NCBI RefSeq assembly: GCF_000687455.2
Contig: NZ_JGVW01000080.1
Span: 1 to 64,000 of the forward strand
Direction of reading: 5' to 3'
DNA: 64,000 nt
DNA from: Burkholderia sp. lig30
GTDB taxonomy: Bacteria > Pseudomonadota > Gammaproteobacteria > Burkholderiales > Burkholderiaceae
Part shown: piece after piece, positions 4,992 through 56,803 of the stretch
Layout: each line of letters opens with the position of its first letter
Position numbering within the stretch: position 1 is the first letter of the stretch
Position numbers and translations under genes: made by a program
Notes under the pieces: model-generated
Seen by the model: only the letters and a program-made list of their open reading frames with translations
What the model was told of the DNA's origin: nothing
Databases searched by the model: none

Positions 4992-6428
4992 TCAATAATG
5001 TTCGCCGACCCGCACGATCTTCAGCGTGTTGGTGCCGCCCGCCTGCCCCATCGGCTCGCCGACGGTCAGCACCACCATGTCGCCGTGCGCGACGTAGCCG
5101 CGCTTCACGACCAGGTCGATCGCCTGCTGCAGTGCAATATCGCGATCGGCGTTGAAGTCGCCGTGCAGCGGCGTGACGTTGCGGAACAGCGCCATCGCGC
5201 GCTCGCTGCCGACGCGCTGCGTCAGCGCGAAAATCGGAACGTGGGTGTAGTGGCGCGACATCCACAGCGCGGTCGCGCCCGACTCGGTCAGCGCGACGAT
5301 CGCCTTCGCGCCGAGGTGGTACGCGGTAAACAGCGCGCCCATCGCGATCGACTGGTCGATCCGGGTGAACGTGCGATCGAGAAAATCCTTGTCCAGCTCG
5401 ATGTGCTCGGATTTCTCGGCCTCCACGCAGACGGCCGCCATCGCCTCGATCGTCTCGACCGGGTACTTGCCCGCCGCGGTCTCGGCCGACAGCATCACCG
5501 CGTCGGTGCCGTCGAGCACCGCGTTCGCGACGTCCGACACCTCGGCGCGGGTCGGCACCGGCGCGTGGATCATCGACTCCATCATCTGGGTCGCGGTGAT
5601 CACGAGCTTGTTCGATTCGCGCGCCATGCGGATCATGCGTTTCTGCAGCGCCGGCACCGCCGCGTTGCCCACTTCGACGGCCAGGTCGCCGCGCGCGACC
5701 ATGATGCCGTCGGACGCGTCGAGGATGCCCTGCAGCGCCGGGATCGCCTCGGCCCGCTCGATCTTCGCGATCATTTTCGGCTTGATGCCGAACGGCGCGC
5801 CCGCGATGTTCGCGAGCTGGCGCGCCATTTCCATGTCCGTCGCGTTCTTCGGGAACGACACCGCGACCAGGTCGGCGCCGAGCGACATCGCCGTGCGGAT
5901 GTCCTCCATGTCCTTCGCGGTCAGCGCGGGCGCGGACAGCCCGCCGCCCTGCCGGTTGATGCCCTTGTTGTTCGACAGCTCGCCGCCCACCTTGACGGTC
6001 GTGTGGATCTCGTCGCCCTGCACGCGCTCGACCGTCAGCACGATCAGGCCGTCGTTCAGCAGCAGCAGGTCGCCCGGCTTCAGGTCGCGGGGCAGATCCT
6101 TGTAGTCGAGGCCGACCCGCTCGTCGTTGCCCAGTTCGCAGGCCGCATCGAGGATGAACGACTGGCCCGGGCTCAGCATGGTCTTGCCGTTCTCGAACTT
6201 CCCGACGCGGATCTTCGGACCCTGCAGGTCCGCCATGATCGCGATCTCCCGGCCGATCCTGCGCGCGGCCTCGCGCACCATCTCGGCACGCTGGCGGTGA
6301 TCGTCGGCGGTGCCATGCGAAAAATTGAGCCGCACGACGTCGAGGCCCGCCTGCATCATCTGCAGCAGAACCTCCGGCGAACTGGACGCCGGGCCGATCG
6401 TCGCGACTATCTTGGTGGCGCGATGCAT
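4992..6428 (-). CDS. pyk: Pyruvate kinase
   Basis: Transfers phosphate from phosphoenolpyruvate to ADP, the last step of glycolysis. Seen: 478 aa starting MHRATKIVATIGPAS; the NFSHG motif, the MADLQGPKIRVG segment, the KIERAEAI catalytic-lysine motif and MVARGDLAVEV, all in the expected order, then the C-terminal allosteric domain ending in VGEPMGQAGGTN. The ATG at 6428 is chosen because upstream in-frame residues are non-conserved and arginine-rich. It lies 82 bases downstream of pgk, and the two are probably co-transcribed. Confidence 0.96.
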   Translation of the reverse strand: MHRATKIVATIGPASSSPEVLLQMMQAGLDVVRLNFSHGTADDHRQRAEMVREAARRIGREIAIMADLQGPKIRVGKFENGKTMLSPGQSFILDAACELGNDERVGLDYKDLPRDLKPGDLLLLNDGLIVLTVERVQGDEIHTTVKVGGELSNNKGINRQGGGLSAPALTAKDMEDIRTAMSLGADLVAVSFPKNATDMEMARQLANIAGAPFGIKPKMIAKIERAEAIPALQGILDASDGIMVARGDLAVEVGNAAVPALQKRMIRMARESNKLVITATQMMESMIHAPVPTRAEVSDVANAVLDGTDAVMLSAETAAGKYPVETIEAMAAVCVEAEKSEHIELDKDFLDRTFTRIDQSIAMGALFTAYHLGAKAIVALTESGATALWMSRHYTHVPIFALTQRVGSERAMALFRNVTPLHGDFNADRDIALQQAIDLVVKRGYVAHGDMVVLTVGEPMGQAGGTNTLKIVRVGEHY

Positions 6429-6510
6429 GAAACTCCTCGTCTGAGTCAGGGGGATGCGCTGGGCGGACCGCCGCGGGGTGACCGGCAGGACACCCCGCGC
6501 GCCGCCATGC

Positions 6511-7707
6511 TCAGGCTGCCCGCGTTTCGAGCACTTCCACTGCCGGCAGTTTCTTCCCTTCGAGGAACTCGAGGAACGCGCCGCCGCCCGTGGAGATATA
6601 GCTGACCTGGTCGTGGATGCCGTACTTCGCAATCGCCGCGAGCGTATCGCCGCCGCCCGCGATCGAGAACGCGGACGAATGGGCGATCGCGTCGGCCAGC
6701 GTCTTCGTGCCGTTGCCGAACTGGTCGAACTCGAACACGCCGACCGGGCCGTTCCAGACGACCGTGCCGGCCTTCTCGAGCTGGCTCGCGAGCGCCTTGG
6801 CCGTCTCCGGCCCGATGTCGAGGATCATGTCGTCCGCTTCGATGTCAGCGACCTTCTTCACCGTCGCGGCTGCCGTCGGCGAGAATTCCTTCGCGGTCAC
6901 GACGTCGCTCGGGATCGGCACCGACGCGCCGCGCTTGCGCGCTTCGTCGATGATCGCCTTCGCCTCGTCGACGAGGTCGGCTTCCGCGAGCGACTTGCCG
7001 ATCGACAGGCCGGCCGCCAGCATGAACGTGTTCGCGATGCCGCCACCGACGATCAGTTGGTCGACCTTCTCGGCGAGCGACTTCAGGATCGTCAGCTTGG
7101 TCGACACCTTCGAGCCGGCGACGATCGCGACGAGCGGGCGCTTCGGGTTGCCGAGCGCCTTGCCGAGCGCGTCGAGCTCGGCCGCGAGCAGCGGGCCCGC
7201 GCAGGCCACCGGCGCGTACTTCGCGATGCCGTGGGTCGTCGCCTCCGCGCGGTGCGCGGTGCCGAACGCGTCGTTCACGTAGACGTCGCACAGCTGCGCC
7301 ATCTTCTGCGCGAGCTCGTCCGAGTTCTTCTTCTCGCCCTTGTTGACGCGGCAGTTCTCGAGCAGCACGACCTGGCCCGGCGCGACGGACACGCCGTTCT
7401 CGACCCAGTTCGCGACGAGCGGCACGTCACGGCCGAGCAGCTCGGCGAGGCGCTTCGCGACCGGCGCGAGCGAATCCTCGGGCTTGAACTCGCCTTCCGT
7501 CGGGCGGCCCAGGTGGGACGTCACCATCACCGCGGCGCCGGCGTCGAGCGCGGCCTGGATGGCCGGCACCGACGCACGCACGCGGGTGTCCTCGGTGATG
7601 TTGCCGTGATCGTCCTGCGGGACGTTCAGATCCGCGCGGATGAACACGCGCTTGCCGGCGAGCTGGCCGGCGGCGATCAGGTCGGTAAGACGCTTGACTT
7701 GGCTCAT
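6511..7707 (-). CDS. pgk: Phosphoglycerate kinase
   Basis: Interconverts 1,3-bisphosphoglycerate and 3-phosphoglycerate with ATP/ADP transfer. Seen: 398 aa; the N-terminal [12 protein letters not shown] signature, TSHLGRP, the [11 protein letters not shown] motif, the KVSTKL hinge and the C-terminal GGGDTLAA loop that binds the nucleotide. The ATG at 7707 gives the usual family length; further upstream the frame encodes atypical residues. Pgk, pyk and fba form a co-directional glycolytic cluster. Confidence 0.97.
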
Positions 7708-7941
7708 GGAGAAAATGAAGTAGTGGATGGAGAAAACGGTTGGATACGACGTGCGCGGGCTGCCGCCTGAGGGCGCCGGATGCGGCCGCGGCTCGCGCGA
7801 TCCGCATGACGCGCACCGGAAATATCTGGACGCGGCCATTTTAGCCGATCCGTCCGGCCGACTGACCCGTGCGTCGGCGAATTCCACCCGCCCGGGACAC
7901 GCGCCGCGCGCCGCGCAGGACGCCGACAGCACGCCGGCCGG

Positions 7942-16226: not shown

Positions 16227-16538
16227 TTACTTGAGGGCAATCTGCGGCAGGGTGTTGTTCCACGCGTCCTTGGCCCAGGCCAGCGTTTCGTCGCCGCCCA
16301 CGAGCGTGCCGGCGATAACGCCCCACACGGTACCAATGAGGGGCGTCACAGCATAGCCGACGAGCTGTGCAAGCGCGCCAAAGCCGAATCCGCCAGCGCC
16401 GCCCAGCTTGCCGCCGAGCGCTATCGCGAGAACACCGCCCGTAATGCCGCCGATAATGGCACCGCGTGCCGCATCATCGAGCGAAGTCGCCCAGCCGCCC
16501 GATACGTTCCGTGCTTCGATACCCGTCAATTCGCGCAT
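16227..16538 (-). CDS. Double-glycine-leader peptide, bacteriocin-like
   Basis: 103 aa from ATG at 16538, with AGGAAAGG upstream as ribosome binding site. Seen: a 15-residue leader MRELTGIEARNVSGG ending in the Gly-Gly typical of substrates cleaved by C39-peptidase ABC exporters, then a body very rich in Gly, Ala and Ile with repeated GxxxG-like spacing (GAIIGGITGG; GGKLGGAGGFGFG) and a short polar tail. Known: this architecture matches class II bacteriocins and class II microcins. Inferred: an exported, membrane-active peptide. No immunity gene or exporter is adjacent. The leader shares geometry with three peptides at 50.8-52.3 kb. Confidence 0.75.
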   Translation of the reverse strand: MRELTGIEARNVSGGWATSLDDAARGAIIGGITGGVLAIALGGKLGGAGGFGFGALAQLVGYAVTPLIGTVWGVIAGTLVGGDETLAWAKDAWNNTLPQIALK

Positions 16539-47575: not shown

Positions 47576-49078
47576 ATGCAGGATCAATACATCCTCGCAC
47601 TCGACCAGGGAACGACCAGCTCGCGCGCGATGCTGTTCGACCGCCAAGGCAACATCGTGTCGACCGCCCAGAAGGAATTCGAGCAGATCTACCCGCAGCC
47701 GGGCTGGGTCGAGCACGATCCGCAGGAAATCTGGTCGACGCAGGCCGGCGTCGCCGCCGAAGCCGTGACCCGGGCCGGCCTGAACGGCACGTCGATCGCC
47801 GCGATCGGCATCACGAACCAGCGCGAAACGACGATCGTCTGGGATCGCGAAACCGGCCATCCCGTCTATAACGCGATCGTCTGGCAGGACCGCCGCACGG
47901 CCGACTTCTGCGACACGCTGAAGGCTCAGGGCCTCGAGGCGACGGTGCGCGCGAAGACCGGCCTGCCGATCGACGCGTATTTCTCCGCGACGAAGATCCG
48001 CTGGATTCTCGACAACGTCCCCGGCGCGCGCGACAAGGCGCAGGCCGGCAAGCTGGCGTTCGGCACGGTCGACAGCTGGCTGGTGTGGAACTTCACGAAG
48101 CACGCGCTGCACGTGACCGACGTGACGAACGCGTCGCGCACGATGCTGTTCAACATCCACACGCGCCAGTGGGACGACGAGCTGCTCGCGCTGTTCGACA
48201 TCCCGCGCGACATGCTGCCGGAGGTGAAGGCGTCGTCGGAGATCTACGGTCACACGAAGACCACGGTGTTCGCGTCGAAGATCCCGCTCGCGGGCATCGC
48301 GGGCGACCAGCACGCCGCGCTGTTCGGCCAGATGTGCACGACGTCGGGCATGGTGAAGAACACCTACGGCACCGGCTGCTTCCTGATGATGAACACCGGC
48401 GCGACGCCGATCGAATCGAACAACAACCTCGTCACGACGATCGCATGGCAGATCGGCGACGAAGTGCAGTACGCGCTCGAAGGCAGCATCTTCATCGCCG
48501 GCGCGGTCGTGCAGTGGCTGCGCGACGGCCTCGGCATCATCAAGAGCGCGGCGGAGATCGAGGCGCTCGCCGAGAGCGTGCCTCACACCGACGGTGTCTA
48601 TCTGGTCCCCGCGTTCGCCGGGCTCGGCGCGCCGCACTGGAACGCCCGCGCGCGCGGCTCGCTGTTCGGCGTGACGCGCGGCACGACGTCCGCGCATCTG
48701 GCGCGCGCGGCGCTCGACGCGATCGCCTATCAGTCGCACGACGTGCTCGCCGCGATGGAGGCCGATTCCGGCATCCGCGTCGGCGAGTTGCGCGTCGACG
48801 GCGGCGCAAGCGCAAACAACCTGCTGATGCAGTTTCAGGCAGACCTGCTCGGCGTCGACGCGGTGCGCCCGCAGATCACCGAGACGACGGCGCTCGGCGC
48901 CGCCTATCTCGCCGGCCTTGCGATCGGCTACTGGAAGAGCGTCGACGAACTGCGCAGCCAGTGGCAGCTCGACCGCCGCTTCACGCCGTCGATGGCCGGC
49001 GCGCAGGTCGACGCATGCCTCGCCGGCTGGCGGCGCGCGGTGCGCGCGGCCAAGGCCTGGGCCGACGACACCCAGTAA
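47576..49078 (+). CDS. glpK: Glycerol kinase
   Basis: Phosphorylates glycerol to sn-glycerol-3-phosphate. Seen: 500 aa, FGGY fold; [11 protein letters not shown] (phosphate 1), GITNQRETT and [18 protein letters not shown], and the ATP site [21 protein letters not shown] at 47563-47566 supports ATG 47576; two ATG codons shortly upstream in frame are alternatives. It lies 85 bases after glpD. Confidence 0.96.
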
Positions 49079-49163
49079 GCGCCCGAACCGGCATCGACAT
49101 ACACGACAATGCCGGCGGGCCGCGCAGCACGCGAGCCCGCCGCGGCCTACGAGAGACACCAGC

Positions 49164-49877
49164 ATGTCACCTTACATCGCGGAATTCATCGGCACGGCGC
49201 TCCTCGTGCTGCTCGGCAACGGCGCGGTCGCCAACGTCCTGCTCGCCAGGACCAAGGGCCGGGGCGCCGACCTGATCGTCATCGTGATGGGCTGGGCGAT
49301 GGCGGTGTTCGTCGCCGTCTACGTGACGGCGTCGTTCAGCGGCGCGCACCTCAACCCCGTCGTCACGATCAGCCTCGCGCTCGCGGGCAAGTTCGCGTGG
49401 TCGAAAGTCGGCGGCTACATCGCTGCGCAGATGCTCGGCGGCATGGCGGGCGCACTGCTCGTCTGGCTCGCGTACCGGCAGCATTTCGCAAAGGAAGCCG
49501 ATGCGGACCTGAAGCTCGCGGTGTTCTGCACCGCTCCCGCGATCCGCAGCGTCACGCACAACGTGCTGACCGAAGCGATCTGCACGTTCGTGCTGATTCT
49601 CGGCGTGCTCTATCTCGCCGCGCCGCAGGTCGGGCTCGGCGCGCTCGACGCACTGCCCGTCGGCCTGCTCGTGCTCGGCATCGGCATCTCGCTCGGCGGC
49701 CCGACCGGCTATGCGATGAGCCCGGCGCGCGATCTCGCGCCGCGCATCATGCATGCGCTACTGCCGATTCCGGGCAAGCGCGACAGCGACTGGCGCTATG
49801 CGTGGGTCCCGGTCTTCGGCCCGCTGATCGGCGGCTCGCTGGCTGCGGGGTTGTATCTGTCGCTGCACGCGCACTGA
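49164..49877 (+). CDS. glpF: Aquaglyceroporin / glycerol uptake facilitator
   Basis: 237 aa, six membrane helices plus two half-helices. Seen: first pore motif FSGAHLNPVVTI (NPV, not NPA) and second GYAMSPARDLAPR (SPA, not NPA), with the conserved pore Arg and the Asp after it, as in glycerol channels. It completes the glycerol uptake and breakdown set with glpK and glpD (86-base gap to glpK). Confidence 0.9.
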   Translation: MSPYIAEFIGTALLVLLGNGAVANVLLARTKGRGADLIVIVMGWAMAVFVAVYVTASFSGAHLNPVVTISLALAGKFAWSKVGGYIAAQMLGGMAGALLVWLAYRQHFAKEADADLKLAVFCTAPAIRSVTHNVLTEAICTFVLILGVLYLAAPQVGLGALDALPVGLLVLGIGISLGGPTGYAMSPARDLAPRIMHALLPIPGKRDSDWRYAWVPVFGPLIGGSLAAGLYLSLHAH

Positions 49878-50030
49878 CGCAGGACGGCATGCGCGCCGCC
49901 GGGCTGCGGGCTGTTCTCTCTGGCGATGTCGATGCCAGATGCGTCAGCGGCCGCCCGCACCGCCCGCCTCCGATCAAAGCACGTATCATGTCGGCCTGAT
50001 TGCATCGCCGACGCCCGAATTCCCCGACCC

Positions 50031-50717
50031 ATGCTAGACCACCTCATTTGCGACTGCGACGGCGTGCTCGTCGACAGCGAAGTCATCGCCGACCGCATGA
50101 TCGTTCAGACGCTCGCGGCCACGTTCCCCCACATCGACTTCGAAAGCGTCGCGAAGACCGCGTTCGGCCAGCAGACGTCGCGCTTCCTCGCCGGCCTCGA
50201 AACCCGCTTCGGCATCACGATGCCGGACAATTTCCTCGACACGATCGAGCACAACATCGAAGCGGACCTCGCGCAGTCGCTCACGCCGATCAACGGCGTG
50301 CGCGATGCGTTGCAGAAGGTCAGCCTGCCCGCGGCGGTCGTGTCGAACAGCCGTCTCGAGCGCGTGCGCAGCTCGCTCGAGCGCGCGGCGCTCACCGATC
50401 TGTTCGGCGATCGCGTGTTCAGCGCCGAGCAGGTCGCGCGGCCGAAGCCCTATCCGGACGTCTATCTGCACGCCGCACGCACGCTCGGCGTCGAGCCGGC
50501 GCGCTGCGTCGTCGTCGAGGACAGCGTATCGGGCCTGAATGCGGCACGCACGGCCGGCATGAAGACGATCGCGTTCGTCGGCGCGAGCCACATCCCGGGC
50601 GACTACGCGGACGCGCTGCGCGCGATGGGCATCACGCGGATCATGCGGAAGATGGAAGAATTGCCCGGCCTCGTCGAAGCCGGCATGCGAGGGGAATTCG
50701 GCAACGCGCCGTGGTGA
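50031..50717 (+). CDS. HAD-IA family phosphatase (phosphoglycolate phosphatase-like)
   Basis: 228 aa cytoplasmic hydrolase. Seen: motif I CDCDGVLVDSE (nucleophile Asp and acid Asp), a helical cap domain, motif II VVSNS, motif III Lys in ARPKPYPD, motif IV VVEDSVSGLNAA. Known: such proteins hydrolyse small phosphates. The substrate is unknown; the glp cluster next door makes a phosphorylated C3 compound possible but this is only inference. Its 3' end has been duplicated twice downstream as decayed fragments together with peptide genes. Confidence 0.9.
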   Translation: MLDHLICDCDGVLVDSEVIADRMIVQTLAATFPHIDFESVAKTAFGQQTSRFLAGLETRFGITMPDNFLDTIEHNIEADLAQSLTPINGVRDALQKVSLPAAVVSNSRLERVRSSLERAALTDLFGDRVFSAEQVARPKPYPDVYLHAARTLGVEPARCVVVEDSVSGLNAARTAGMKTIAFVGASHIPGDYADALRAMGITRIMRKMEELPGLVEAGMRGEFGNAPW

Positions 50718-50732
50718 TGCCGGTGGCGGACG

Positions 50733-50761
50733 CGAGACGCGGCGGAATACGCCGCGTCTCG
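50733..50761. repeat. Perfect 12-base inverted repeat between HAD and peptide 1
   Basis: Arms 50733-50744 and 50750-50761 around a 5-base loop, between two convergent genes; no T run follows on either side. Near-identical copies recur at 51518-51546 (one mismatch) and, shortened, near 52109-52124. Confidence 0.8.
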
Positions 50762-50822
50762 CCACCCATGCGGGACGCGGAGCGCATCGCCTCGCGCCCG
50801 CCGCGTGTCGCGGCTCGATGCG

Positions 50823-51032
50823 TTACTTCGCGCCGCTCGGGCGGTTGAAGAGGTTCTTCAAGCCTTCGCCGAACTTCTGGAGGGCGGAAAAGACGCCCTC
50901 GAACACCTTTGCTGCGATGACGCAGACGAGCGGCTCGCCGGTTTTGCCGTCAGCGTCCTTGAACTTGAAGATCTTCGGCTCGCCGGCCCCGCCACACACG
51001 TGTTTGCATTCCGCCGCGCTGATGTTACGCAT
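50823..51032 (-). CDS. Double-glycine-leader peptide 1
   Basis: 69 aa. Seen: leader MRNISAAECKHVCGG (15 residues, GG end), then a 54-residue body with a lysine-rich front (KIFKFKDADGK) and an amphipathic helix-like tail (VFEGVFSALQKFGEGLKNLF), net positive charge. A strong GGAGG lies 8 bases before the ATG, so the start is 51032 although the frame continues upstream. Known: GG leaders direct cleavage and export by C39-peptidase ABC transporters. Inferred: an exported bacteriocin-like or signalling peptide. No exporter or immunity gene is visible nearby. Confidence 0.75.
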   Translation of the reverse strand: MRNISAAECKHVCGGAGEPKIFKFKDADGKTGEPLVCVIAAKVFEGVFSALQKFGEGLKNLFNRPSGAK

Positions 51033-51160
51033 GATTTCTACCTCCATTGAGTCGTGGTTACTGCCCCGGCACGATCGCCGCGGGCACCCATGCGTGACGA
51101 CATCGAACGGATCGGTCCGCTGCGATGCGGTCAGGCTTTGCAAAGAGTAATGCATTGGTG

Positions 51161-51195
51161 TACGAAACAAATATCGCCGAATATCCAGATTTGAT
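51161..51195 (-). promoter_or_regulatory. Conserved upstream block of peptide 1
   Basis: Minus strand reads AAATCTGGATATTCGGCGAT within this block, about 130-160 bases before the peptide start. Copies lie at 51930-51963 and 52420-52445 at similar distances from peptides 2 and 3. It may hold the promoter or an operator, or merely reflect recent duplication. Confidence 0.45.
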
Positions 51196-51229
51196 CATTT
51201 GCGCCGCAGTCTGCGCATGCCCGCTGCGC

Positions 51230-51502
51230 ATCGCTCGCATGGCACGCGCACCTCGCTGAAATATGGCCGGCTCGGCGCCGTCTCCGGGGAACACGCGGCG
51301 GGCCTGAATGTCGCTCGCGCGGCCGGGATGAAGGCGATCGCAATCGTCGACGTGAGTCGAATTCCGGGTGATTACGTGAATGTGTAGACGCGTGGACGCG
51401 CTGCGCGCAAAGGGCAACACGTGGATCATGCGGAAGAGGGATGCATTGCCGGGTCTCGTCGAAGCCGGCATGCGAGGAGCATTCGGCGATGCACCTTGGT
51501 GA
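51230..51502 (+). pseudogene. Decayed copy of the HAD gene 3' end (unit 2)
   Basis: Aligns to the last ~90 codons of the HAD gene: the segment GLNVARAAGMKAIAIVDVSRIPGDY parallels GLNAARTAGMKTIAFVGASHIPGDY of the intact gene, then a stop (51385-51387) and an insertion break the frame, after which the LPGLVEAGMRG-like end resumes to a matching TGA at 51500-51502. There is no start or active site, so it is non-functional. Confidence 0.85.
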
Positions 51503-51517
51503 CGCGGGAGACGAACA

Positions 51518-51546
51518 CGAGACGCGGCGAAAAACGCCGCGCCTCG
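51518..51546. repeat. Second copy of the array inverted repeat
   Basis: Arms 51518-51529 and 51535-51546 with AAAAA loop; same stem as at 50733-50761 with one substitution. Between HAD remnant 2 and peptide 2. Confidence 0.75.
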
Positions 51547-51589
51547 TCATCGATGCAAGGCGCGGAGCGCATCGCCCCGCGCCCGCCGC

Positions 51590-51805
51590 TTATCGCGGCT
51601 GCTTGTGCCCGCCGGTGCTGGGCGGGACGACGCCGATCGGGCATACGATCGGGCGGTCGAACCACCACGGACGCTTCGAGCCGAACACGTTACCTGCGGC
51701 ACTCGCGATAACCGGCGTGTCGGAGCCCTCGGGAAGCTGAAGCTTTTCCACTTCGCCCGTGCCACCAAACACGTTATTGCATTCAACCGTATTGATATTG
51801 CGCAT
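51590..51805 (-). CDS. Double-glycine-leader peptide 2
   Basis: 71 aa. Leader MRNINTVECNNVFGG matches peptide 1 at M1, R2, N3, I4, E8, C9, V12, G14 and G15. The 56-residue body is different: acidic front, then SKRPWWFDRPIVCPIGVVPP and a basic end, with tryptophans, prolines and one cysteine. Ribosome binding site GAGG, 8 bases before the ATG at 51805. The frame is open for 78 more codons upstream, but the conserved start and ribosome binding site argue for the short form. Confidence 0.7.
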   Translation of the reverse strand: MRNINTVECNNVFGGTGEVEKLQLPEGSDTPVIASAAGNVFGSKRPWWFDRPIVCPIGVVPPSTGGHKQPR

Positions 51806-51929
51806 GATTTCTGCCTCTATAGAGTGATCACTGCCCGGGCACCAACGCCGCGGGCGCCAATGCGAGACGACATCGAACGGGTCGAACCGCCACGACTCCG
51901 TCAGGCACGGAAAATAATAAACATCGGCA

Positions 51930-51963
51930 TACGAAACAAATATCGCAGAATATCCAGATTTGA
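51930..51963 (-). promoter_or_regulatory. Conserved upstream block of peptide 2
   Basis: Nearly identical to the block at 51161-51195 over about 30 bases (one substitution in the ATATCG-rich core). Starts about 125 bases upstream of the peptide 2 ATG. Confidence 0.45.
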
Positions 51964-51990
51964 CCAGGTGTGCGCGACCGGGAAATACGA

Positions 51991-52090
51991 TCTCGTTCGT
52001 CGGCGCATAGCAGCCTTCTCGACCGCTACGCGTCCGCACTTCGCGCGATGGACATCACGCGAATCACTCGGAACATCGGCGAGTTGCCTG
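51991..52090 (+). pseudogene. Decayed copy of the HAD gene 3' end (unit 3)
   Basis: About 100 bases aligning to the HAD region encoding FVGASHIPGDYADALRAMG and ITRIMRKMEELPG, with several substitutions and a frame-breaking TAG. It ends next to the peptide 3 stop codon. Confidence 0.75.
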
Positions 52091-52093
52091 CGC

Positions 52094-52285
52094 TCAGCGC
52101 AGCCAGGACGGCGGAATACCGCCGGGGCGGAACGCCGGAAGGATGTCGATCCTGACGAAAACGGGAGTGCGGTTTTCATCGCTGCCCTTTTCGATCACGA
52201 TGAATGGCACGATCCGTTGCCTGGCCCCGTCGTTGCCGATCCCGCCACACACGAGATCGCGTTCGCGCGCGTTGATTTGACGCAT
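52094..52285 (-). CDS. Double-glycine-leader peptide 3
   Basis: 63 aa. Leader MRQINARERDLVCGG keeps M1, R2, I4, E8, V12, G14 and G15 of the other two. The body is unrelated: IGNDGARQRIVPFIVIEKG, ENRTPVFVRIDILP and a Pro/Gly end. The last ~10 codons are read from the remnant of the array inverted repeat, so the C-terminus appears to have been recruited from duplicated flank. Ribosome binding site GGAGGG 8 bases before the ATG. Confidence 0.65.
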   Translation of the reverse strand: MRQINARERDLVCGGIGNDGARQRIVPFIVIEKGSDENRTPVFVRIDILPAFRPGGIPPSWLR

Positions 52286-52639
52286 GGTTTCACCCTCCGT
52301 TGAAGTTTCGCGTGCCCGCCGGCGGACACGCCGACGGACGTCTGCGCCTGCGCGGCGTCCGGCGAATCTCTGCTCGCGACGCCGACAGGCGACACAAGTA
52401 TGGATACCGCCCTGGGCGCGGGATATCGCAAAATCTCCAGATTCGCCCCTGCGCGTAGCCGATCTTGCGCGCGGTCAGCCATCGGAGGGAGGCGCGACGG
52501 TCGCGATCGACGCATGCGGCCGCGCACCGACCTCGATTGCGGCGTGGGGCGTGGGGCGTGGGGGGGGCGCATCGGGCTTCGACGGCCGATGCCAGCATCC
52601 CGGCGGCCGGCGCAATGCGCGGCCGCCTTCGAGTATGCG
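52286..52639. other. Intergenic stretch between peptide 3 and ribB
   Basis: 354 bases. It holds the conserved upstream block of peptide 3 (52420-52445) and a G-rich run at 52546-52567 (three to four G tracts of four or more spaced by CGT). No gene is seen. Confidence 0.5.
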
Positions 52640-53353
52640 TTACGCTTCGCTGGCGCAGCACTCGCGGGCAGCCGCGAGCGCCTCGCGAAACTCGACCAGC
52701 TCCGCGATCGTCAGCATCGGCAAGCCGTGACGTGCGGCGAAACGCTCGACGTCCACGCCGCGCGTCATCGTGCCGTCCGGATTCATCAGCTCACACAGCA
52801 CGCCGGCCGGCTGCAGGCCCGCGAGGATCGTCAGGTCCACCGTGCCTTCGGTGTGGCCGCGGCGCACGAGCACGCCACCCGGCTGCGCGCGCAGCGGAAA
52901 CACGTGACCGGGGCGGACGATGTCATCAGGCGTCGCGTCGTCGGCGATCGCGGCGCGGATCGTCGTCACGCGGTCGGCCGCCGATACGCCGGTATGCACG
53001 CCTTCGCGCGCCTCGATCGACACGGTGAACGCGGTGCCGTTGCGGCTCTCGTTGGTCTGCACCATCGGCGGCAGGTCGAGCGCGCGCACTTTCTCGTCAG
53101 TCAGGCACAGACAGACGATCCCGCTGCATTCGCGGATCAGGAGCGCCATCGTTTCGGGCGTGATCCGCTCGGCCGCGACGATCAGGTCGGCTTCGTTCTC
53201 GCGGTCGTGATCGTCCTGCAGCACGACCGCGCGGCCCGCGCGCAACGCGTCGAGCGCAGCGGCGATGCGCGGCGGCACCGGTTCGGTGTCGAGCAACGGA
53301 AGATCGGCAAAGGCATCGGCCGGAGCCGACGAAGAATGGGACGTAAAGGACAT
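52640..53353 (-). CDS. ribB: 3,4-dihydroxy-2-butanone 4-phosphate synthase
   Basis: Makes the four-carbon precursor of riboflavin from ribulose-5-phosphate. Seen: 237 aa; a ~30-residue variable N-terminus, then [22 protein letters not shown] (metal-binding acidic cluster), [30 protein letters not shown] and [11 protein letters not shown]. No GTP cyclohydrolase II domain is fused. Regulated by the FMN riboswitch upstream, so it is off when FMN is plentiful. Confidence 0.95.
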
Positions 53354-53475
53354 GTGAAACGCTCCTCGCAATGCAATTCGATTGGGCGAAAAACGTTTCA
53401 GGGCATTGCAAACAGACAGCGCGACATCCGCTTCGCGCGCAACGCGAAACGGCCCCGACGAACATGACTATCTGC
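53354..53475 (-). other. Expression platform between riboswitch and ribB
   Basis: About 120 bases of leader between the riboswitch aptamer and the ribB start; probably contains the switching hairpin that controls translation or termination. No separate gene. Confidence 0.4.
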
Positions 53476-53622
53476 ACATCTTCTCTCATCCGGACTGTGA
53501 CCGTCGGCTCTGGCATTCGACCAGATCTGCTGACCCCGCGCATGAAGCGCGGGCGCTCGCGGGCTTGCCGGCTGACGCCGGCCTACCGCCGGTGGGGAAT
53601 TTCACCCCGCCCTGAAGACGCA
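53476..53622 (-). promoter_or_regulatory. FMN riboswitch (RFN element)
   Basis: Minus strand shows the conserved RFN parts in order: CTTCAGGGCGGGGTGAAATT, CCCCACCGGCGGTA, a variable GC-rich hairpin, AGCCCGCGAGCG, a second variable hairpin, GGTCACAGTCCGGATGAGAG, and the closing AAGA. Located directly upstream of ribB. Confidence 0.95.
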
Positions 53623-53752
53623 CTGATGCCGGCGGAAAACCGGCGGGCCAAGCATACAACAGCTGCACGCGCGGTGCAGCGAGAACCTGCAAAACCTTGT
53701 TGCGGAACGGACCACGACACGTTCGCAAGCCCGCTACCGGCGAGAACAGGCA

Positions 53753-54424
53753 CTAGCCGGCCGCGCGCGCCTCAGGGACGTGCCAGCGCGGCGGCACCTC
53801 GGCGCTCACCGTGACGCGGAACGCGCGCGCCTCACTGTCGCCGGGATTGCGCAGGCTGTACGGCTGGTCGGCGTCGAACACGATCGCGTCGCCGGTCGCG
53901 AGCAGCTGCCGCCGGTCGTGCACGCTCACTTCGAGCGTGCCCTCGCTCACGACCAGATTGATCGTCGTGCCCGGCGCGCGCCGCGCGCCCGGCTCGGTGT
54001 GCAGCGGCGCGATCCGCAGTTCGTGAAACTCGGCGGCGGCCGGCTCGCCTTCCGGATACAGCGCGCGCGCCCAGAAACGGCCGTTCGAGCTGATCACGCG
54101 CGTCGCGCGTTCGGCCGCGAGATGCTCGAAGCCGCTGACTGCATGGCGTCGCAGGAACGCCGCGACCGACACCTTGAGCGCCGCGGCGATCTTGCAGAGC
54201 ACTTTGATCGACGGCACGCTGCGCGCCGATTCGATCTGCGCGAGCATCGCGCGCGACACGCCGGACAGCCGCGCCAGCGCGTCGAGCGACAGTTGCCGCT
54301 CCGCGCGCAGCCGCGCCAGGTTGACGCCGACGAGCTGCTCGAGGACGTCGAACGACGCCGCCTGCGCGGCGTCGCCGGCATCGAAGGAAGACACATCGCG
54401 CACGAGCGCCAGGGGGGAATGCAT
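53753..54424 (-). CDS. XRE-family regulator with C-terminal cupin domain
   Basis: 223 aa. Seen: helix-turn-helix LARLRAERQLSLDALARLSG and VSRAMLAQIESARSVPSIKVL (residues ~37-80), then a cupin_2 barrel with APGTTINLVVSEGTLEVSV and LATGDAIVFDADQPYSLRNPG. Known: such regulators sense small ligands in the cupin and control amino acid or polyamine metabolism. Target unknown; a divergent target is not obvious, as the MFS gene upstream is on the same strand 131 bases away. Confidence 0.9.
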   Translation of the reverse strand: MHSPLALVRDVSSFDAGDAAQAASFDVLEQLVGVNLARLRAERQLSLDALARLSGVSRAMLAQIESARSVPSIKVLCKIAAALKVSVAAFLRRHAVSGFEHLAAERATRVISSNGRFWARALYPEGEPAAAEFHELRIAPLHTEPGARRAPGTTINLVVSEGTLEVSVHDRRQLLATGDAIVFDADQPYSLRNPGDSEARAFRVTVSAEVPPRWHVPEARAAG

Positions 54425-54554
54425 TGCGTTGCCTCCGGGCTGCGTGGCAGCCTGCAAATCGAGTGACGCCAGACTAGCATCCGCCCCCGGCGCGCCAAAC
54501 GAAGTTATCTTCACACCGTTATCAGCATCGCGGAGGAATACGTTTCGCAACGCG

Positions 54555-55730
54555 CTATTGCGCCGTTGCGGCAGCGCTTTGCGCCGGGCCGCGGGTGTCG
54601 AGGCGCGCGGCCAGCCACGTGACGACGAGCGCCGCGAAGCTCACCGCGGCGGCAACCCACGGCAGCACGTCGAGCCCGAAGCCGTGCCCGAGCGCGAGAC
54701 CGCCGAGCCATGCGCCGCCCGCGTTGCCGACGTTGAACGCGCCGATGTTCAGCGTCGACGCGAGATGCGGCGCGGCGGCCGCCTTCTCGACGACGCGCGC
54801 CTGCAGCGGCGGCACCGTCGCGAATGCCGCGATCCCCCACACAAACACCGTGACGACCGCCGCGACCGGCAGGTGGCTCGTCTTCGCGAATACGGCCATC
54901 ACCGCCATCAGCGCGACGAGAATCGCCATCAGCGACGGCATCAGCGCGCGGTCGGCGAGCTTGCCGCCGATCGCGTTGCCGACGGTGAGCCCCGCGCCGA
55001 ACAGCACGAGGATCAGCGACACCGCGCGCGGCGAAAAGCCGGCGACTTCCTCGAGGATCGGCGCGATATAGGTGAACACGACGAACACGCCGCCGAAGCC
55101 GAGCACGGTCATCAGGAGCGCGAGCCACACCTGCGGCTCCCTCAGCACGCGCACCTCGTGGCCGAGGCCTGCCGGGGCGCTGTCGTGCCGGTTCGGCACG
55201 AGCGCGGCGATCCCGGCGAGCGACGCGACGCCGAGCGCCGCGACGATCCAGAACGACGCGCGCCAGCCGAGCGTCTGCCCGACGAACGTGCCGAACGGCA
55301 CGCCCAGCACGTTCGACAGCGTGAGTCCGGTGAACATCAGCGCGATCGCGCTCGCGCGCTTGTCGGCCGGCACGAGCGACGCGGCGACGACCGCGCCGAT
55401 GCCGAAGAACGAGCCGTGCGCGAACGACGTGACGACCCGAGCGACCATCAGCATCGCGTAGCCGGGCGCCAGCGCGCACAGCACGTTGCCGACGACGAAG
55501 ATCGCCATCAGCAGTTGCAGCGCGGTCTTGCGCGGCATGCGGCTCGTCAGCACCGCGAGCAGCGGCGCGCCGGCCGCGACGCCAAGCGCATAGCCGGTCA
55601 CGAGCAGTCCGGCGGACGGCAGCGACACGGCGAGATCGCGCGCGACCTCGGGCAACAGGCCCATGATGATGAATTCGGTGGTGCCGATGGCAAAGGCGCT
55701 GATCGCGAGCGCCAGTAACGGGACAGGCAT
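54555..55730 (-). CDS. MFS drug/sugar efflux transporter (YdhP/AraJ-like)
   Basis: 391 aa, 12 TM helices. Seen: N-terminal LALAISAFAIGTTEFIIMGLLPEVA, typical of the arabinose-efflux (DHA1) subfamily, motif A-like region SRMPRKTALQLLM, a GxxxGPxxG-like motif C region (GVPFGTFVGQTLGWR). Inferred: exporter of drugs or sugars. It is divergent from a LysR regulator (140-base intergenic region), which likely controls it. The ATG at 55730 is chosen to begin just before TM1. Confidence 0.9.
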   Translation of the reverse strand: MPVPLLALAISAFAIGTTEFIIMGLLPEVARDLAVSLPSAGLLVTGYALGVAAGAPLLAVLTSRMPRKTALQLLMAIFVVGNVLCALAPGYAMLMVARVVTSFAHGSFFGIGAVVAASLVPADKRASAIALMFTGLTLSNVLGVPFGTFVGQTLGWRASFWIVAALGVASLAGIAALVPNRHDSAPAGLGHEVRVLREPQVWLALLMTVLGFGGVFVVFTYIAPILEEVAGFSPRAVSLILVLFGAGLTVGNAIGGKLADRALMPSLMAILVALMAVMAVFAKTSHLPVAAVVTVFVWGIAAFATVPPLQARVVEKAAAAPHLASTLNIGAFNVGNAGGAWLGGLALGHGFGLDVLPWVAAAVSFAALVVTWLAARLDTRGPAQSAAATAQ

Positions 55731-55837
55731 GAGATTCTCCAGACTGCGTGGCACGACGCGCATGCCGCACCGCAGCAAAAGATGATTCGAGCGCGCATTG
55801 TCCCGAACACGGCCAGTTTTGATAATTGGCGTAGCAT

Positions 55838-55852
55838 TTGAAGTATTTTCAA
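55838..55852. promoter_or_regulatory. Candidate LysR operator between the MFS exporter and lysR-type gene
   Basis: TTGAA-GTATT-TTCAA, a perfect inverted repeat 18 bases before the LysR start codon; such a palindrome in a divergent gap is typical for LysR regulators. Confidence 0.4.
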
Positions 55853-55870
55853 AAATCTTCGAATAATCGT

Positions 55871-56803
55871 ATGGACCGACTGGGCGATATCCGGTTGTTC
55901 GCCGAAGCGGCCGAGCTGGGCAGCCTGACCGCCGCCGGACGCAAGCTGGGCCTCACGCCGGCCGCCGCCAGCGCGCGCCTCGCGAAACTCGAGGCCAGCG
56001 TCGCGACCCGGCTGTTCGAGCGCTCGACCCGCCAGTTGCGGCTCACCGAGGAAGGCCGGCTTTACCTGAACTGCTGCCGCCAGGCGCTGCAGGCGCTCGA
56101 CGACGCCGACGCGATGCTGCAGCACGGCCGCAACGTCGCGAGCGGCAAGGTGCGGCTGTCGACGACCTCCGACTTCGGCCGCAACCTGCTGCTCGACTGG
56201 CTCGACGACTTCAACGCGCTGTATCCGGACGTCACTTTCGCGCTGACCGCGTCCGATTCGTCGTCGAACCTGTGGCAGGAGGAGATCGACCTGGCGATCC
56301 GCTTCGCCGCGCCGCCGGACGGCGCGCTGATCGCCCGGCGCCTCGCGGCGAACCGCCGTGTGCTGTGCGCGTCGCCGGACTTCATTGCGCGCCACGGCGC
56401 GCCGGCCGCCCCGGACGATCTGGCGCGATTTCCGTGCATCGTGATCACGATCGCGTCCGGCCCGATGAACCAGTGGCGCTTCACGCGCGGCGACGACACG
56501 CAGGTCTATACGGTGCCGCTCGCGACCGCGCGCGAGACGAACGACGGCGCGCTGCTGCGCGAATGGGCGATACGCGGATACGGGATCGCGCTGAAGTCGA
56601 TCTGGGACATCGCCGACGACGTGCGCGCCGGCCGGCTGAAGGTGCTGCTGCCCGACTGGCGCCACCACGACGCGCCGCTGCACGCGCTCTATCACAGCAA
56701 GCGCTACATGGCGCCGCGCGTGCGCACGCTGCTCGACTTCCTGATCGAGCGGTTCGCGCGCGAGGAAGCGGCGCTGGACGACCTGCTGAACGCCTGCCGT
56801 TAA
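55871..56803 (+). CDS. LysR-family transcriptional regulator
   Basis: 310 aa. Seen: N-terminal helix-turn-helix MDRLGDIRLFAEAAELGSL, TAAGRKLGLTPAAASARLAKLE, then the periplasmic-binding-protein-like effector domain (GKVRLSTTSDFGRNLLLDWL; DLAIRFAAPPDG; REWAIRGYGIALKS). Divergent from the MFS exporter gene and likely its regulator. The ATG at 55871 gives the standard N-terminus. Confidence 0.92.
   Translation: MDRLGDIRLFAEAAELGSLTAAGRKLGLTPAAASARLAKLEASVATRLFERSTRQLRLTEEGRLYLNCCRQALQALDDADAMLQHGRNVASGKVRLSTTSDFGRNLLLDWLDDFNALYPDVTFALTASDSSSNLWQEEIDLAIRFAAPPDGALIARRLAANRRVLCASPDFIARHGAPAAPDDLARFPCIVITIASGPMNQWRFTRGDDTQVYTVPLATARETNDGALLREWAIRGYGIALKSIWDIADDVRAGRLKVLLPDWRHHDAPLHALYHSKRYMAPRVRTLLDFLIERFAREEAALDDLLNACR

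Follow-up and report, generated by a model that had tools for sequence, protein, structure and literature searches.

The window analyzed here is a 64,000-nucleotide (nt) stretch of Burkholderia sp. lig30, located on contig C80 (138,669 bases) of a draft assembly of 5.5 Mb in 139 contigs (genome G000 of our sample). Between a HAD-family hydrolase gene and a ribB-like gene it carries three minus-strand open reading frames (ORFs), U1, U2 and U3, of 69, 71 and 63 amino acids (aa), each of which begins with a predicted 15-residue leader that has a double glycine (GG) at its end (MRNISAAECKHVCGG in U1, MRNINTVECNNVFGG in U2 and MRQINARERDLVCGG in U3). Cleavage after the GG would leave mature parts of 54, 56 and 48 residues, respectively. 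A self-comparison of the window DNA reveals direct repeats that span 50500-52450, with a spacing of 769-785 nt between units 1 and 2 and of 480-653 nt between units 2 and 3. An earlier note, made from the DNA letters, had proposed a tandem array of three such units in which the second and third HAD copies are broken while the peptide genes keep their start codons, ribosome-binding sites and leaders. The dot-plot comparison it suggested does display the tandem repeats; units 2 and 3 both hold 3' pieces of the HAD gene, and a GGAGG or GAGG ribosome-binding site precedes the ATG of U1, U2 and U3. HAD 3' sequence, a GG-leader gene and an upstream block recur in all three units as described; the exception is the inverted repeat, which is shared by units 1 and 2 and absent from unit 3. 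The features are as follows.

50031..50717, plus strand: complete HAD-family hydrolase gene of 228 aa from which the 3' pieces derive (Pfam HAD_2, E=1.3e-22)
50732..50762, no strand: unit 1 inverted repeat with a 13-bp perfect stem, between the convergent HAD and U1 genes
50823..51032, minus strand: U1 peptide gene, 69 aa (leader profile E 4.1e-8, U1 itself being a profile row)
50988..51032, minus strand: U1 15-residue double-glycine leader (U1/U2 unit alignment)
51170..51191, minus strand: U1 promoter block, AATCTGGATATTCGGCGATATT (block pattern search)
51270..51502, plus strand: unit 2 HAD 3' piece, decayed (repeat families D1 and D4)
51518..51546, no strand: unit 2 inverted repeat (repeat search; folding z -5.4)
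51590..51805, minus strand: U2 peptide gene, 71 aa (leader profile E 2.2e-7, U2 itself being a profile row)
51939..51960, minus strand: U2 promoter block (block pattern search)
51972..52104, plus strand: unit 3 HAD 3' piece, decayed, shorter and overlapping the end of U3 (repeat families D2 and D6; matches to the HAD genes of relatives)
52094..52285, minus strand: U3 peptide gene, 63 aa, with the C-terminus IPPSWLR (leader profile E 3.2e-7, U3 itself being a profile row)
52422..52443, minus strand: U3 promoter block (block pattern search)
52640..53371, minus strand: ribB-like gene, array boundary (ORF, with a flavin mononucleotide (FMN) riboswitch upstream)

Divergence within the array

U1 and U2 lie in duplicates of a single unit (50501-51204 and 51270-51973), which we aligned segment by segment. 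The mature parts share 61 of 148 positions (41%) with a further 22 gap columns, versus 73-85% identity in the surroundings: 71/94 in the promoter, 63/74 in the 5' untranslated region, 33/45 in the leader, 83/105 in the post-stop segment with the inverted repeat and 173/217 in the HAD piece. Since the two units diverge by 15-27% in the surroundings of the mature part and by 59% within it, an assembly duplicate is ruled out as the source of the array. The array and its HAD pieces provide an internal yardstick for the rate of peptide change, albeit an imperfect one, as the HAD piece is compared with a working gene, which understates neutral change. By this yardstick the divergence of the mature part exceeds that of the adjacent decayed HAD piece, a contrast that argues against plain drift; taken alone, it does not part selection from exchange of the bodies (the mature parts) or gene conversion of the flanks.

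The earlier note had also held the bodies after the GG to be unrelated to each other, which our comparisons do not bear out. The U1 and U2 bodies retain a weak similarity in their DNA (a score equaled by 1 of 1000 codon shuffles), although a shuffle test on the proteins does not reach significance (p 0.15). The same test finds no similarity between the bodies of U1 and U3 (p 0.66) or of U2 and U3 (p 0.35), and it does match U3 to the peptide of another Burkholderia, strain SRS-46 (p 0.003), making U3 kin to the peptides of other species. The three mature parts look like fast-diverged relatives rather than unrelated sequences.

Relatives at the same locus

We compared the locus across a genus sample of 65 genomes, 64 of which have the HAD gene (all except G050). 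The gap between HAD and ribB could be measured in 60 genomes, window included, plus G057, where it is 124 bp and too short for a peptide gene; no ribB could be located in the stretch retrieved around HAD for G014, G015 and G028. Seven other genomes have gaps of 503-704 bp that hold one open minus-strand GG peptide gene, namely SRS-46 (G048), Bp9143 (G046), B. cepacia LK29 (G061, with a GTG start), G034, B. paludis (G027), BCC0506 (G054) and G041, and the remaining 52 measured gaps are 50-291 bp long. The comparison across strains that the earlier note suggested, run here across species, thereby finds open frames at the locus in seven others, one each versus three in the window. These relatives were found via synteny because the body is too variable for a single-peptide search: with the U1 peptide as query, only the window itself matched among the 65 genomes at E<=0.01. 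A profile of the full peptide alignment, searched against 249 family genomes from 25 genera, matched five, all of the window's genus.

The carriers are scattered: on a quickly built tree of 61 genomes, in which 19 of the 58 inner branches lack support, the eight carriers require eight changes. SRS-46 has a decayed U3-like copy beside its open peptide gene (tblastn 3e-10), and G022, which has no peptide gene, still matches the promoter block at 19 of 22 positions, compared with 13 in the next-best peptide-free genome. From this distribution we conclude that the putative peptide genes form a birth-and-death family, gained and lost between species. Most of the ten peptides are proline-rich, and seven have the motif [IV]PxxWLR at or near the C-terminus (six end in WLR, and that of G041 in WLRPFGQ); it is missing from the U1, U2 and BCC0506 peptides. 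A search of open PMC papers returned no report of this array. In Paraburkholderia sediminicola (L059), the HAD-ribB gap measures 1574 bp and contains an ORF of 279 aa together with another small one that bears no relation to the peptides.

Constraint on the leader and change in the body

Residues M1, R2, E8, V12, G14 and G15 are invariant in 13 leaders (the one GTG start being written as M). Across the leaders of the ten genes, the ratio of nonsynonymous to synonymous differences (pN/pS) is 0.59 in frame versus 1.03 and 1.05 in the shifted frames, computed over 45 pairs that are not independent, which indicates a translated and constrained leader. The species pairs formed by LK29, G034 and B. 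paludis show a nonsynonymous divergence (dN) of 0.06-0.07 in the leader and of 0.18, 0.37 and 0.50 in the body, together with a synonymous divergence (dS) of 0.16, 0.21 and 0.24 in the HAD gene and of 0.34, 0.47 and 0.79 in the body; the HAD pair G054/G041 was misaligned and was excluded from the comparison.

Body dN above HAD dS, together with the U1/U2 contrast, supports the rapid change of the mature sequence that the earlier note had supposed, and in the leader-versus-body comparison it called for, dN is lower in the leader. The dN/dS ratio of the body is below 1, and body dS is raised, so point selection as the cause of the diversification does not follow. Our claim is accordingly that the bodies diversify fast, not that positive selection is proven, and body exchange or gene conversion of the flanks may contribute to the contrast. 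The proposal that the peptide is the kept part of the duplicated cassette is supported by the constraint on the leader, the kept promoter block, the decay of the HAD pieces and the open relatives in seven species.

The promoter block and the inverted repeats

The block AATCTGGANNTTNNGCGATAT(T/C) begins 156-160 nt upstream of the ATG in all three units, and its three occurrences in the window compare with 0.15 expected (1 of 100 shuffles reaches three, the pattern being derived from these copies). Scored against a consensus that is likewise derived from the genes themselves, the block is recognizable 143-166 nt upstream of 10/10 ATGs, at 15 to 22 of 22 positions. A one-mismatch search of the 65 genomes, which overlooked the diverged blocks of G034, G054 and G041, returned 16 matches, versus none for the backwards control. 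Seven of these are at the HAD locus, seven are one conserved sequence and two resemble coding DNA. We dropped the block as a marker of a wider regulon, as nine of the 16 matches lie off the HAD locus and seven of those have no GG peptide nearby. The conserved sequence, AATCTGGAGGTTCATYGATAT, occurs at seven places in six genomes of the genus (L163, L164, L166, L171, L172, L173 and L175, near 1500), with no GG peptide nearby.

Promoter and terminator scans gave no signal above shuffles. The stretch around the unit 1 inverted repeat (50722-50775) folds at -32.9 kcal/mol with a z-score of -4.2, compared with -5.4 for the repeat of unit 2, and both are likely to act as the shared terminator of convergent genes. 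Unit 3 has a different predicted hairpin within its HAD piece (52000-52093, z -2.9, with 0/200 shuffles as good).

A candidate exporter on another contig

The genome has three matches to the C39 peptidase family, none of them on C80. One belongs to a complete system on contig C49 (L157) that consists of a 716-aa transporter with Peptidase_C39, ABC_membrane and ABC_tran domains, an HlyD protein, a TolC-family protein and two GG peptides, one of which is of the glycine-zipper type with 11 GxxxG motifs. We take this system to lie between fimbrial-type and flagellar-type genes. The closest solved chain to the transporter by sequence is 4ry2, a bacteriocin transporter, and its catalytic triad, C26/H99/D115, has the same spacing as the triad C32, H105 and D121 given for CvaB (PMC9746304). 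Judged by its genes, the C49 system is a Cdz-like type I system. The other two C39 matches are stand-alone proteins (L158, about 6221-6913, and L159, about 7010-7795), which we presume may belong to functional-amyloid-type loci.

This transporter co-occurs with the peptides in the genus sample. A transporter at least 84% identical to that of C49 is present in 11 of the 65 genomes (in G034 split over two frames), comprising seven of eight peptide carriers versus four of 56 others (Fisher p 4e-6; n 64, G050 left out). Counting G034 as transporter-less gives 6/8 versus 4/56 (p 7e-5), and counting the scar in G022 as a carrier, a post hoc choice, gives 8/9 versus 3/55 (p 3e-7). A leader profile run on the 65 genomes finds 27 matches at E<=0.01 in 11 genomes, 13 of them the profile's own rows; ten of the 11 genomes have the transporter at 75% identity or more, as do all those with the 14 other matches, of which 13 lie beside the transporter. 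In G061 and G027, which both possess the set of HlyD, transporter and TolC, the search beside the transporter of at least 84% identity turned up no GG peptide, and the only leader match in each at this threshold is the HAD-locus peptide.

A family of putative exported competition peptides

From the array, the in-frame constraint on the leader, the shared promoter block, the fast divergence of the bodies, the same-locus relatives and the co-occurrence with the transporter, we infer cleavage, export, use of the exporter in trans and antagonism. We give roughly even odds (about 0.5) to the reading that U1-U3 belong to a birth-and-death family of exported, microcin-like competition peptides that use the C49 system in trans. 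The three tandem genes would encode precursors of short exported peptides, and duplications starting inside the HAD gene and carrying along its 3' end would have let the array grow. Later, the mature parts would have diverged much faster than their surroundings, with the leader, ribosome-binding site and promoter block kept. The C39 peptidase domain of the C49 ATP-binding cassette (ABC) transporter would recognize the leader and cut after the GG, and the peptide would exit through this transporter, the HlyD adaptor and the TolC-type channel. We hypothesize a role in microcin-like antagonism among related bacteria because of the GG leader, the class of exporter, the fast change of the body, the several variants in one genome and the birth and death of the genes.

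A number of observations weigh against this reading. With respect to the exporter, a pairs test on well-supported branches gives 3.0 pairs in the same direction, 0.1 opposite and 1.9 without difference (p 0.25), too few pairs for adequate power. G046 (Bp9143) has the peptide and promoter block with a best transporter match of 31%, the transporter of G034, being in two frames, looks broken, four genomes have the transporter at 84% or more and no HAD-locus peptide, and G012, G022 and G059 have it at 75% or more with no leader match at E<=0.01. G061 and G027 each carry a further transporter with 51-52% identity, and the 49-54% class is also common in peptide-free genomes of the genus; which exporter serves the peptides is therefore not settled, and it could be another than C49. 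With respect to antagonism, U1, U2 and U3 have 0, 1 and 0 GxxxG motifs and no glycine zipper, the mature parts of U2 and U3 are weakly hydrophobic and that of U1 moderately so (best 19-residue mean 1.51), and body dN/dS stays below 1 in all three species pairs (0.53, 0.79 and 0.63). No membrane-type immunity candidate is present among the ORFs of the array (50718-52640), a scan that leaves room for an unlinked or soluble immunity protein; the two non-peptide ORFs there with a ribosome-type site, 51489 on the plus strand (83 aa) and 51240 on the minus strand (60 aa), are not membrane-like (best 19-residue hydropathy 0.72 and 0.97). The conserved C-terminal end would equally suit a receptor ligand.

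The last point leads to the main rival, which we regard as possible though rather unlikely: the peptides could be strain-specific signals, or pheromones, that leave by the same export route and are sensed by kin, with the [IV]PxxWLR end docking at a receptor and the middle giving specificity. The lack of a membrane-type immunity candidate in the array speaks for signaling, as do the non-membrane-like U2 and U3, the proline-rich character of most of the ten peptides and the C-terminal motif shared by seven of them; however, a single signal would not usually exist as three variants within the same genome, and U1, U2 and the BCC0506 peptide do without the motif. We consider it improbable that body and flanks contrast because gene conversion has kept the promoter, leader and HAD pieces alike, or because foreign bodies were imported, either of which would leave the peptides the same. 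Body dS does rise along with dN between species, as conversion or import would have it, but U1 and U2 retain a residual DNA similarity in the body, and the whole-peptide profile, which a donor body could escape, has no match outside the known loci in the 249 family genomes. Least probable are neutral leftovers, that is, duplicated spacer DNA with frames open by chance, which would accord with the decayed HAD pieces, the decayed copy in SRS-46 and the 52 of 60 gaps that lack the gene, but sit badly with a leader constrained in the coding frame only, a body diverged beyond the decayed HAD piece (with the yardstick's imperfection noted above), the start, ribosome site and leader kept in 10/10 genes (located by that leader) and the co-occurrence with the transporter.

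Returning to exported competition peptides, we also offer a further, more tentative proposal, to which we give less than even odds. A secreted family that has neither a glycine zipper nor a recognized linked immunity gene, is encoded away from its exporter, shares a promoter block and, in 7/10 members, the [IV]PxxWLR end, and gains its diversity through tandem gene birth and death at a single fixed chromosomal site might constitute not a classical bacteriocin operon but a code for recognition or competition that is linked to the exporter.

Comparison with known export systems

U1-U3 have a short leader that ends in GG and contains conserved residues, and their genome encodes a C39 ABC transporter with the catalytic triad; as far as can be judged from sequence, they resemble GG peptides in export. 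The C49 system recalls Cdz in its glycine-zipper peptide and in adjoining what we take to be fimbrial-type genes. The leaders of the array end in GG, like the G[G/A/S] leaders of Cdz, which also uses type I export (PMC5380434). Cdz is a contact-dependent bacteriocin system of Caulobacter; candidate Cdz-like systems have been reported in Burkholderia cepacia, and many are in or next to islands with fimbrial adhesins (PMC5380434). The array differs in that it is on a different contig of the draft assembly from the candidate exporter, away from type I secretion genes, and in that GxxxG motifs number 0, 1 and 0 in U1-U3 versus 11 in the C49 peptide, with no immunity candidate found in the array. 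Two tested features of Cdz toxins are thus absent from it. The Cdz survey built its profile from small proteins encoded no more than about 10 kb from secretion genes and required glycine zippers (PMC5380434), a scope that orphans like U1-U3 would escape.

The class II microcins of Enterobacterales are similar in combining a precursor with a GG/GA leader, a C39 transporter with Cys, His and Asp, a membrane fusion protein and TolC, and in having a variable core and a conserved exporter; they differ in that an immunity protein is among their five named components (PMC9746304), none having been identified at the array. The pneumococcal rtg, blp and com exporters offer a parallel for one peptidase ABC transporter secreting a co-regulated set of GG peptides, and extensive variation of the pneumococcal locus between strains is reported (PMC7018657). 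That system is Gram-positive, and the secreted peptides are rtg-encoded beside the exporter (PMC7018657), whereas here peptides and exporter are on different contigs. The array represents a diversifying candidate substrate family away from its likely exporter, which synteny, co-occurrence, the leader profile and the promoter block brought to light, and if export in trans is true, the substrate range of Burkholderia Cdz-like exporters has been underestimated.

Other features of the window and genome

The U1-U3 peptides match no Pfam or NCBIfam family at E<=10, and the plasmid records give one 2% match, to a HAD gene. An Rfam search of 48000-56000 at the gathering threshold finds the FMN riboswitch RF00050 at 53474-53623 and nothing else. 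We take the gene at 52640..53371 to be ribB-like.

Elsewhere in the window, 16230-16538 on the minus strand is an orphan gene for a 103-aa product with a GG leader and ten GxxxG motifs (Pfam DUF5862, E 4.9e-15), the leader of which is of the same class as those of the array; a search of open PMC papers found nothing mentioning DUF5862. The leader profile also finds an unlinked GG-leader peptide of 77 aa, glycine-rich, at L239:2675-2908 on the minus strand of contig C93 of the same genome, with neighbors that are presumably metH-like and argS-like.

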